Assembly: GCF_000517625.1 (NCBI RefSeq) | Contig: NZ_CP007055.1 | Location: 1,240,001-1,304,000, forward strand | DNA from: Halostagnicola larsenii XH-48 | Lineage (GTDB): Archaea > Halobacteriota > Halobacteria > Halobacteriales > Natrialbaceae | Length of the DNA: 64,000 nucleotides | Direction: 5' to 3' | In this document: positions 3,351 through 28,737 of the stretch, in pieces | Numbering within the stretch: position 1 is the stretch's first letter | Layout of the letters: each line of letters opens with the position of its first letter | Notes under the pieces: model-generated | The model's database searches: none | What the model was told of the DNA's origin: nothing | Seen by the model: the letters and a program-made list of their open reading frames with translations, nothing else | Translations under genes and position numbers: made by a program

Positions 3351-4382
3351 TCAGTCGTCTGACTCGTAGTGGTCTCCGGCTGACGAGGGCATCTGGGTCT
3401 TTCCGACGAAGACGAGCACGACGAGTACGATCACGTAGGGGAGCACTCCGATCAATCTCGAGGGAATGGGGATGTCGGAGGTCTGCTGAATTCCGAGCTG
3501 GAGCGTCTCGAGACCGCCAAACAGAAACGAGGCGAGGAAGGCGCCGATCGGATTGTAGTTGCCGATCAGGTACGCGGTGAGGCCGATGAATCCGCGTCCG
3601 TTCACCATCGTTTCGCCTCCACCGACGAATGTACCGGCATTGAGGGCCAACGCAGCGCCGCCGATCCCACAGTACACGCCGGAGAGAACGGTTCCAACGT
3701 ACCGAACCAGCTGAACGTCGACGCCCGCCGTATCGAGCGCTTTCGGGTCTTCGCCGCTCGCCTCGATCCACAGCCCGAACCTCGTTCGGTTGAGAACGTA
3801 CCACGTGAGCGGGCCCGCGGCGACGAGCAACATGACGGGTGGCGCCATCACGAATATGTCTCCGAAAACGGGGAGATCTGCGAGACCTGGAATCGCCCAC
3901 TCGTCGAACCCGTCGACGCTGGGACTGTTCACCTGACCCCAGACGATGGTGCTCGCGAACGGGGCGAATCCGAGCGCAATCAGCCAGATCGCGAGTCCCG
4001 CGATCACCTGATCGGCCTTGAATTCGATACAGGCGATCGCGAACAGGAGAGCGACCACCGCGCTGGCGACGATCGCGAACCCGAACGCCAGCCAGACGTT
4101 TGCGCCGATCGGCGTCAGCGACAGCGCGTACATGCTCGCGACCGCGCTGAACGCGCCGACAATGAGCAGTCCCTCGAGGCCGATGTTGATGATGCCCGCC
4201 TTTTCGGAGAATATCCCGCCCAGTGCGGCGAATCCGATAGGGACCGTAAGCCGTAATGCCATCGATATCGACGACGCGTCCACTGGACCGAACAGCCAGA
4301 GACAGGCCACGGCCACGACGGCCAAGACAACCGCGGTGTACAGCATCTTCTCCCTGGAAATCGAGTCGGTCGAGACGTTCAC
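3351..4382 (-). CDS. ABC transporter permease, nucleoside (BMP-type) system
   Basis: The 343-residue membrane protein has about eight hydrophobic helices and the branched-chain permease (BPD_transp_2) signature around KAGIINIGLEGLLIVGAF and the GLTAYLIGNYNPIGA loop. In BMP-type systems (for example NupP/NupQ and YufPQ) two such permeases form the channel for nucleosides. Its start overlaps the end of the other permease gene by four bases (ATGA), so both come from one message. It is the last gene of the operon. Confidence 0.92.
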   Translation of the reverse strand: MNVSTDSISREKMLYTAVVLAVVAVACLWLFGPVDASSISMALRLTVPIGFAALGGIFSEKAGIINIGLEGLLIVGAFSAVASMYALSLTPIGANVWLAFGFAIVASAVVALLFAIACIEFKADQVIAGLAIWLIALGFAPFASTIVWGQVNSPSVDGFDEWAIPGLADLPVFGDIFVMAPPVMLLVAAGPLTWYVLNRTRFGLWIEASGEDPKALDTAGVDVQLVRYVGTVLSGVYCGIGGAALALNAGTFVGGGETMVNGRGFIGLTAYLIGNYNPIGAFLASFLFGGLETLQLGIQQTSDIPIPSRLIGVLPYVIVLVVLVFVGKTQMPSSAGDHYESDD

Positions 4383-27287: not shown

Positions 27288-27626
27288 CTACTCGAGCAGA
27301 TTCTCCTCGACCCGACAGCCACAGGGATACGCATTGTGGTGGGTCGGAACCAGTTGAACCACTGCGGTAACCGGCAGTCCACAGTTCGGGCACTCGGGCT
27401 GGGAAGACGGGGGCTCGTCGGTCACCCAGACCCCCTGCTTCGTCACGACGAGCGAGACGCCGCGCACCTCGAGGCGAACCTCGACCGCGTCACCGCCCGT
27501 GTCGAGCAGTCGTGCGAGCGCTTCGGGATCGAACTCCCTGCCGAGTTGGTAGGCGTCTCGAGGAACGCCCTGTTTCTCGAGGGTTCGGACGATGTCCACG
27601 ACCAGACTGTCAGCCGTCGCCGTCAT
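27288..27626 (-). CDS. HalOD1-like domain fused to a small zinc ribbon
   Basis: The 112-residue protein has an N-terminal region (about 5-75: IVRTLEKQGVPRDAYQLGREFDPEALARLLDTG, then VEVRLEVRGVSLVVTKQGVWV, quoted in parts) that resembles the haloarchaeal HalOD1 output domain. It ends with a cysteine pair cluster, CPNCG and CGC, likely to bind zinc. HalOD1 domains are of unknown biochemical role and are often found alone or at the end of sensor proteins. It converges with gatA, 92 bases away. The HalOD1 assignment is from pattern similarity only. Confidence 0.6.
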   Translation of the reverse strand: MTATADSLVVDIVRTLEKQGVPRDAYQLGREFDPEALARLLDTGGDAVEVRLEVRGVSLVVTKQGVWVTDEPPSSQPECPNCGLPVTAVVQLVPTHHNAYPCGCRVEENLLE

Positions 27627-27734
27627 CGCTCGCGGTCACCCTCGAGTGCGCGTGCCGTTCTCGGCGGTGCGGTCGCTGGCGGTGTGTGAGCGGAGAGCGG
27701 CGGTAGTCGACTTCGATTCGTCTGTCGGACGGGA

Positions 27735-27742
27735 TGTTTAAG
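27735..27742 (+). promoter_or_regulatory. TATA box of the structured RNA candidate
   Basis: TGTTTAAG is a good haloarchaeal TATA-like element, 25-28 bases before about 27764. It stands in an otherwise GC-rich segment. It would start transcription a few bases before the first helix of the folded segment. Confidence 0.5.
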
Positions 27743-27763
27743 CCCGCGGAGAAGATATCCAAT

Positions 27764-27900
27764 CATGGCAACCAAGCCGCATCGGTTTGGAAGCCACGTC
27801 TCGGGTGTCTTGAGCACCCGGGGCATTTCAATACGAAACGCCCCCGTGTCGCGGAGTGTGTGGCTTCCATTCGACCCAATGCCCTGTAGTGTCATATAAC
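27764..27900 (+). ncRNA. Candidate structured non-coding RNA with a branched fold
   Basis: The segment can fold into a closed multi-helix structure. The outer helix is 10 perfect pairs, TGGAAGCCAC (27788-27797) with GTGGCTTCCA (27860-27869), extended by GCATCGG (27779-27785) with CCAATGC (27876-27882) with one mismatch. Inside are hairpin CGGGTG/CACCCG (27802-27820, 7-base loop) and hairpin GGGCATTTC/GAAACGCCC (27821-27843) with one A-C mismatch and a five-base loop. A weaker hairpin GTAGT/ACTAC (27886-27903) follows, possibly a terminator. It does not match tRNA, 5S, SRP or RNase P RNA as I know them. A 44-codon frame starting at 27765 spans it, but its peptide looks unlike a real protein. 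Family unknown. Confidence 0.55.
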
Positions 27901-27934
27901 TACTGTTTCAGGACAGGAATAATGTGTGCTCGAG

Positions 27935-28183
27935 ATGAGTAGGGATATCTCCAAGAACGTGAACCACCAACAGGTATTTGCTCAATCAGTTTATGAATAT
28001 AACATGAAAGAACGTCGTGGGTGGTCGTTCTTCTATGCCGTTTTGCTGGATCTCCTCGTGTTTTCTGCGGATCTCGCCATCAATGGAAACACGTTCCACA
28101 AAGCCTCGTGGTGGGTTGTGACACTCACGTTGGGCGGGTTACTCGTCTGGTCGCTTCTGACCGATGAGAGAACGAGTACGTGA
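27935..28183 (+). CDS. Hypothetical two-helix membrane protein (DUF-type, 82 residues)
   Basis: The product begins MSRDISKNVNHQQVFAQSVY with a polar N-terminal 35 residues, then two hydrophobic helices (about 36-55 and 60-78). No signal motif or family is recognised. A GTG nine bases upstream (27926) is in frame and could also start it. It lies 52 bases after the RNA candidate and in the same direction. GC content is lower than in the housekeeping genes, similar to the next small gene. Confidence 0.55.
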   Translation: MSRDISKNVNHQQVFAQSVYEYNMKERRGWSFFYAVLLDLLVFSADLAINGNTFHKASWWVVTLTLGGLLVWSLLTDERTST

Positions 28184-28224
28184 GAGACACCTGTATGCGG
28201 CTGGCTCTATTGAAATCCGATTCT

Positions 28225-28341
28225 TCAGATGTATTCTAGCGTGAAACACACGCACACGACAGATGCGAACAGAGCAACACCGTAAGTACTCACAGCCCCG
28301 AATCCCCCGAAAGTTATTCCTTGACAGATACCTGTCACCAT
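28225..28341 (-). CDS. Possible 38-residue membrane peptide
   Basis: A short frame reads MVTGICQGITFGGFGAVSTY, then a hydrophobic stretch and ends FTLEYI before TGA. One membrane helix is likely. It is divergent from and overlaps the promoter of the gene at 28345, so both cannot be freely expressed. The glycine-rich hydrophobic composition is typical of haloarchaeal small membrane peptides, but length is too short to be sure. Confidence 0.25.
   Translation of the reverse strand: MVTGICQGITFGGFGAVSTYGVALFASVVCVCFTLEYI
28322..28337. promoter_or_regulatory. Inverted repeat between TATA box and start codon
   Basis: TGACAG-ATAC-CTGTCA is a perfect six-base dyad. It lies between a GTTATTCC TATA-like patch and the ATG at 28345, a position where a bound repressor would block initiation. 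Confidence 0.45.
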
Positions 28342-28344
28342 CGT

Positions 28345-28737
28345 ATGAAAACAGTTCAGTCAAGCCAAACGGGGCGATTAATCTTCTTTGTATCGCTTGC
28401 TACAATGGCTTTCCTCAGTGCAATACGTCTCATTCAGTATGACGCAGTTCCGTGGGAATTGGTCGCAGTATTTGCTATCGGAACTGCTCTACTCGTTGGA
28501 CCTGTTGCATGGACCGCCCGTAACCAACTTCCTGAGAAGCGCCGTGAGAATCTTGTTTATATCGCAGGTGCCATCGCACTACTCTGTGCCCCAGTCATAC
28601 TTGGCCTTGGACTTATCTTTGATAACCTGACGCTTTTTATGGATGCTGGTGCACTTGGCAGTATCGTGGGTTTTGCAGTCGCATTACTTGTCGAGCGGCT
28701 AATCGTACCTAAGCGGCTTCATGGGTTCGCTCAATAG
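28345..28737 (+). CDS. Hypothetical four-helix membrane protein (130 residues)
   Basis: The product starts MKTVQSSQTGRLIFFVSLAT and has four hydrophobic segments (about 10-30, 38-58, 70-92 and 96-120). No family is recognised. The ATG at 28345 is preferred to 28321, because a TATA-like patch and an inverted repeat lie immediately upstream. Codon use is A/T-richer than in neighbouring housekeeping genes, which may reflect recent acquisition. Confidence 0.6.
   Translation: MKTVQSSQTGRLIFFVSLATMAFLSAIRLIQYDAVPWELVAVFAIGTALLVGPVAWTARNQLPEKRRENLVYIAGAIALLCAPVILGLGLIFDNLTLFMDAGALGSIVGFAVALLVERLIVPKRLHGFAQ

Follow-up and report, generated by a model that had tools for sequence, protein, structure and literature searches.

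The folded segment at positions 27764 to 27871 of the window (the whole stretch of 64,000 nucleotides that was analysed) is best read as the 5' leader of a minus-strand mRNA, which carries a short ORF and, coupled to it, a gene for a HalOD1-like zinc-ribbon protein. From sequence comparison, we put the probability of this reading at about 60%. That the folded leader lies on the minus strand is close to certain on the same evidence, and its role as a leader is well supported. A two-state translational switch at the leader is graded as likely, the comparisons tilting slightly in its favour. The leader family is apparently undescribed; it is haloarchaeal and occurs on chromosomes, on plasmids and in at least one halovirus. 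No description of it was found in the literature searched, which consisted mostly of papers available without subscription. Many haloarchaeal mRNAs are leaderless, and we know of almost no natural riboswitch-like leaders in haloarchaea. The features of the window copy are as follows.

27893..27899, minus strand: predicted TATA box of the leader mRNA, TTATATG within the conserved CARTAGnTATA, placed by its spacing to P1
27764..27871, minus strand: structured 5' leader with a three-way junction, reaching to the start codon (R3 score, z of −4.35, covariation)
27860..27869, minus strand: 5' arm of helix P1 (covariation, G-U asymmetry)
27835..27844 with 27820..27829, minus strand: arms of hairpin P3, which spans 27820..27844 (covariation)
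27803..27819, minus strand: hairpin P2, with a hypervariable 7-nt loop at 27808-27814 (stem pairing)
27788..27797, minus strand: 3' arm of helix P1, the shared strand that would alternatively pair with the bases before the AUG (covariation, permutations)
27767..27795, minus strand: alternative pre-AUG hairpin, bulged, pairing GGC/GCC (27793-27795/27767-27769) and AACC/GGTT (27784-27787/27770-27773)
27623..27766, minus strand: short ORF of 47 codons, MIGYLLRGLKHPVRQTNRSR..., with its start codon at 27766-27764 and its stop overlapping the next start (ATGA)
27730..27746, minus strand: possible hairpin in the short ORF, dyad CGGG/CCCG, earlier taken as a plus-strand TATA-like promoter (arms covary among copies)
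27288..27626, minus strand: HalOD1-like protein of 112 aa with a C-terminal zinc ribbon (Pfam, relatives beside the copies)

The first-pass annotation had described this segment as a strongly folded, free-standing plus-strand RNA with its own promoter. The inverted repeats are indeed present in the sequence where it placed them (27788-27797 with 27860-27869, and hairpins at 27803-27819 and 27820-27844). The strong fold was reproduced as well: the 169 nt on the plus strand gave −62.3 kcal/mol with a z of −3.6, a value reached by none of 200 shuffles. The minus-strand leader (27873-27762) had a minimum free energy of −49.1 and a z of −4.35, and again none of 200 shuffles was as good. The strands were told apart by their wobble pairs. 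Among 110 copies, P1 contained 66 plus-strand A-C mismatches, which are G-U pairs on the minus strand, against 2 plus-strand G-U pairs; in P3 the corresponding numbers were 56 and 28. The single A-C mismatch reported earlier for the second hairpin is thus seen on the plus strand, and on the folded minus strand it is a G-U wobble. The covariance model R3, built on the minus strand, scored the window at 79 bits (E 1.6e-20) on that strand and at 22.5 bits on the plus strand.

A free-standing small RNA of the plus strand would find support in its strong fold and in a TATA-like sequence located exactly 28 nt before a conserved ATG. Nevertheless, the G-U asymmetry, the model scores and the minus-strand frame running through the supposed promoter speak against it, and we regard it as very improbable. 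All 33 testable copies keep the frame of the minus-strand ORF in which the proposed promoter, TGTTTAAG, lies. The proposed 3' end, a small hairpin with a T-rich tail, overlaps a likely minus-strand promoter motif (TATA at 27895-27898). The conserved plus-strand ATG sits in a CATG, that is, in the start codon of the minus strand; such a palindromic CATG can disguise a leader as an RNA gene on the wrong strand. A 44-codon plus-strand ORF across the same bases was not conserved, as its frame and stops vary among the copies, and a plus-strand peptide or small protein gene was ruled out on this ground. The earlier suggestion of a cis-acting element was correct, but the element serves the HalOD1-like gene on the other strand rather than the next gene. 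The neighbour on the far side from the HalOD1-like gene is randomly oriented (59 plus and 54 minus), which ruled out a leader of the next plus-strand gene. The element is also no tRNA (a tRNA search of the segment found none) and no family of Rfam 15 exceeded its gathering cut-off on it; it may be new as had been proposed, only not free-standing.

In 106 of 119 copies, exactly 26 nt separate the TATA motif from the end of P1, although the length of the leader and the spacing of the P1 arms vary. This fixed spacing fits a minus-strand promoter with transcription starting at P1, and in the window we infer a start near 27870. Meanwhile, the stop codon of the short ORF overlaps the start of the HalOD1-like or zinc-ribbon gene by ATGA or GTGA in all 33 testable copies, which come mainly from one genus and are therefore not fully independent. 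The two starts lie at widely varying distances, yet every distance equals 2 mod 3. The minus-strand assignment rests on the G-U asymmetry of P1 and P3, the R3 scores, this TATA spacing and the conserved coupled ORF.

The dyad at 27730..27746 had also been considered as an operator around a TATA box. Since its arms change together among the copies and the frame is conserved, this reading was replaced by that of a hairpin in the coding region. Folding of the single window sequence gave a z of only −1.0, and some distant families have a weak hairpin or none. Many Halostagnicola copies (L037, L038, L043, L049, L051, L053, L054 and L059-L061) share a second conserved sequence, GCTCGAGAACACCACTATCGCTGGCAAC...CTCCCCAACCGATTCGCTC, at about +260 to +400 relative to the element and upstream of its promoter. 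When up to 2 mismatches were allowed, it was counted 11 times in this genome. At 27926-28737 the window carries two small membrane-protein ORFs. The syntenic copies L049 and L060 differ in sequence at this place, so that the ORFs may be an insertion.

Compensatory changes in homologous regions, which had been named as the check for the fold, were present. An alignment of 22 minus-strand sequences from Natrialbaceae and other families was used for this. In it, 89.8% of the cells of the leader helices were paired, and sliding the partner strand lowered this value to 28-48%. Changes on both sides were seen in 11 of 24 pairs against 4.1 in shuffles, with none of 500 shuffles reaching this number in a control that ignores relatedness; doubly changed cells numbered 19 against 5.2 under the same control. 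P1 had both-sided changes in 4 of 9 pairs with 95.5% of its cells paired, and P3 in 4 of 7 pairs. The P2 stem is nearly invariant, being 100% paired with two pairs changed on both sides. RNAalifold, applied to the first, plus-strand alignment, had recovered little beyond the 5' hairpin and P2; a misalignment of P3 was part of the reason. These compensatory changes support the fold of the leader at the level of sequence.

The loop of P2 shows 89 distinct sequences in 125 copies. It differs even between the syntenic copies of sister species, and for this reason it is probably unconstrained; some loop words recur across species. A role of the loop as a seed recognising a target in its own transcript was rejected, as the longest complement averaged 4.60 nt against 4.68 nt for swapped copies.

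The 3' strand of P1 has a second possible partner, the bases immediately before the AUG. This pairing was examined in 27 diverse leaders, including those of the halovirus BJ1, Humcor1 and a Deep Lake virus. The pre-AUG strand fitted its own upstream strand with a mean score of 11.70, against 8.13 (sd 0.50) when strands were swapped, and none of 1000 permutations reached this value. The pairing persisted when the common AAGCC type was left out (11.61 against 7.68; 0 of 1000 permutations). Alignment A3 is uninformative on this helix, because its pre-AUG bases are nearly invariant. As the same upstream strand also pairs with the 5' arm, P1 and the alternative helix overlap, by 3-8 nt in every row except that of the window. 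There the alternative hairpin is weak and bulged; it was seen by inspection and missed by the automatic search. When P1 was blocked in folding, the pairing of the AUG rose in 9 of 21 leaders, fell in 6 and did not change in 6; by the same folding energies it rose from 0.17 to 0.99 in the window leader. Such energies support switching in part.

We therefore propose, conditionally, that the leader RNA would adopt two mutually exclusive states. In the first, its 5' end would close the three-way junction through P1 and leave the pre-AUG bases free, so that the short ORF and, by coupling, the zinc-ribbon gene would be translated. In the second, the 3' strand of P1 would pair with the pre-AUG bases and initiation would be hindered. 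The balance would be set by whatever stabilises or opens the junction: a ligand, an effect of salt or a protein, for which the zinc-ribbon product is one candidate. Both the switching and the assignment of the on state are inferred. A synthetic RNA switch that masks the start codon does function in Haloferax volcanii (PMC8241225).

The leader may instead be autoregulatory, as in ribosomal-protein leaders: the zinc-ribbon protein, or another RNA-binding protein, would bind the junction and repress its own mRNA. In its favour, the constant neighbour of the element in Natrialbaceae is a zinc ribbon, whether or not a HalOD1-like part accompanies it. On the other hand, 30 of 120 Natrialbaceae copies and the first genes of three viral operons lack the ribbon. 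We rate this explanation as rather unlikely; the protein binding it invokes could also drive the switch. The remaining 90 of these 120 copies have a zinc-ribbon gene downstream, and a matching ribbon stands beside 14 of the 15 elements of this genome. Relatives of the HalOD1-like gene were found beside 90 of 125 copies, always on the minus strand. At L061 and L071 the RNA is well conserved and no zinc-ribbon gene was detectable nearby. Conversely, two relatives of the HalOD1-like/ribbon gene (G000:C1:406857-407117 and G000:C2:379975-380169) had no leader detected beside them; one of them matches only residues 28-112 and the other only the HalOD1-like part.

The protein of the window is called HalOD1-like because the Pfam family HalOD1 (PF18545) scored it at 16.2 bits (E 0.012), below the gathering cut-off of 26.3, and its plasmid relatives, with 31-49% identity, are largely annotated as HalOD1. 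Its fold prediction from one sequence had a pLDDT of 62, so the structure was too poor for a search. Stand-alone HalOD1 proteins are short, multicopy proteins of haloarchaea, with up to 49 per genome, and occur in haloviruses, according to Galperin et al. 2018 (PMC5847659). The protein studied here differs from those in the HalOD1 passages of that paper by its C-terminal zinc ribbon, coupled short ORF and RNA leader, as well as in its Pfam score. Multicopy HalOD1 proteins as such were already known; the literature searched had no description of this leader, of the short ORF coupled to it or of the association with a ribbon.

The first ORFs that follow the leader outside Natrialbaceae are short and often show ATGA-type coupling; after them come SWIM proteins (Pfam PF04434), other cysteine-rich proteins and, in one locus, an integrase-like gene (PF02899). 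Two of the downstream proteins belong to the viral families phrog_17897 and phrog_14797. At L200 and L205, in two different families, a similar protein on the scale of 290 residues lies downstream. It is reminiscent of a type IV CRISPR Cas7-like protein, but it had no match in PADLOC and, for L200, on which Pfam was run, none in Pfam.

In the halovirus BJ1 (NC_008695) the model found the leader before a SWIM operon (E 2.2e-4). By eye, the same arrangement is also seen in Humcor1 and in the Deep Lake virus, below the reach of the model, and their AUG is the annotated start of the first gene. These viral operons argue against the zinc ribbon as the sole partner of the leader. No leader was found in HRTV-5, an HF1-like virus in which one of the downstream proteins has a relative, and scans of viral contigs with two exact core patterns gave no match. 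The annotated valine start of BJ1 ORF7 falls inside the leader (L224, 3547-3600); its true start is likely to be the in-frame ATG at 3598, which directly follows the hairpin.

Since the element heads diverse operons, several of them of viral or plasmid type, it might instead act on transcription, as a put-like RNA that modifies RNA polymerase or termination and has spread with plasmids and viruses. The conserved alternative helix, however, lies against the start codon and not at a terminator. Many of the units are also short (leader, short ORF and one gene), and we consider such a role improbable.

The DNA search of this genome gave 10 full-length copies with 81-100% identity and 3 partial ones, and the covariance model found 15. 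Three of four sampled congeners had 11-13 matches each. With R3, at E <= 1e-4 and with up to 10 candidates scored per genome, matches were obtained in 109 of 391 sampled haloarchaeal genomes and in 47 of 86 genera. Named hosts of the core include Natrialba, Natrinema, Halopiger, Halovivax, Natronorubrum and Halostagnicola, and megaplasmids of Natrinema and Halomontanus carry the element with no annotated feature under the match. With R2, an earlier model, genome G206 from another haloarchaeal family (loci L194, L208 and L213-L222) gave 18 diverged matches at E <= 0.05. Several of its copies precede a 45-residue Cys/His-rich microprotein, behind which lies a cysteine-rich protein some 180 residues long.

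A compact element that is dispersed and multicopy may also suggest a non-autonomous, MITE-like mobile repeat, with the inverted repeat as a feature of the DNA. In pairwise comparison the copies are homologous over a span that begins at about −430 and reaches +192, counted from 27735, and that includes the minus-strand gene at 27288-27626. This homology, however, ends at the stop codon of a gene and at a promoter and not at terminal repeats. Moreover, many copies are syntenic between species, and the constraint falls on RNA pairing and reading frame, so that we give a mobile repeat hardly any credence. For the leader itself, the strand, fold, covariation, coupling and multicopy state are borne out by comparison of the copies.

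The leader resembles translational riboswitches in its structured 5' region, its conserved junction and the strand that the closing helix would share with a predicted start-codon hairpin. It differs from them in having no known ligand, another fold and no Rfam match, and in standing before multicopy operons of small zinc proteins and in a virus. Downstream-peptide RNA (RF01704) is a cyanobacterial structured leader before short ORFs, in hosts and viruses; the present leader is haloarchaeal, with another sequence and no match in Rfam. The S15 leader of Halobacteria (PMC7247131) is likewise a structured haloarchaeal leader, but it precedes rpsO, while no ribosomal protein gene was seen downstream in the loci examined here. 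An archaeal precedent for riboswitches is the fluoride riboswitch of Thermococcus kodakarensis, according to PMC8241225 the only natural one in archaea to have been determined experimentally. It is conceivable, though we hold this only tentatively, that the leaders form a natural haloarchaeal riboswitch class common to hosts, plasmids and haloviruses, in which a three-strand start-codon switch, together with a conserved hairpin in the coding region, would place many small zinc-protein operons under one signal. A leader family with 10-18 copies in some genomes, and with a member in one virus or more, would suggest that an uncharacterised family of multicopy genes answers to a shared regulatory signal.
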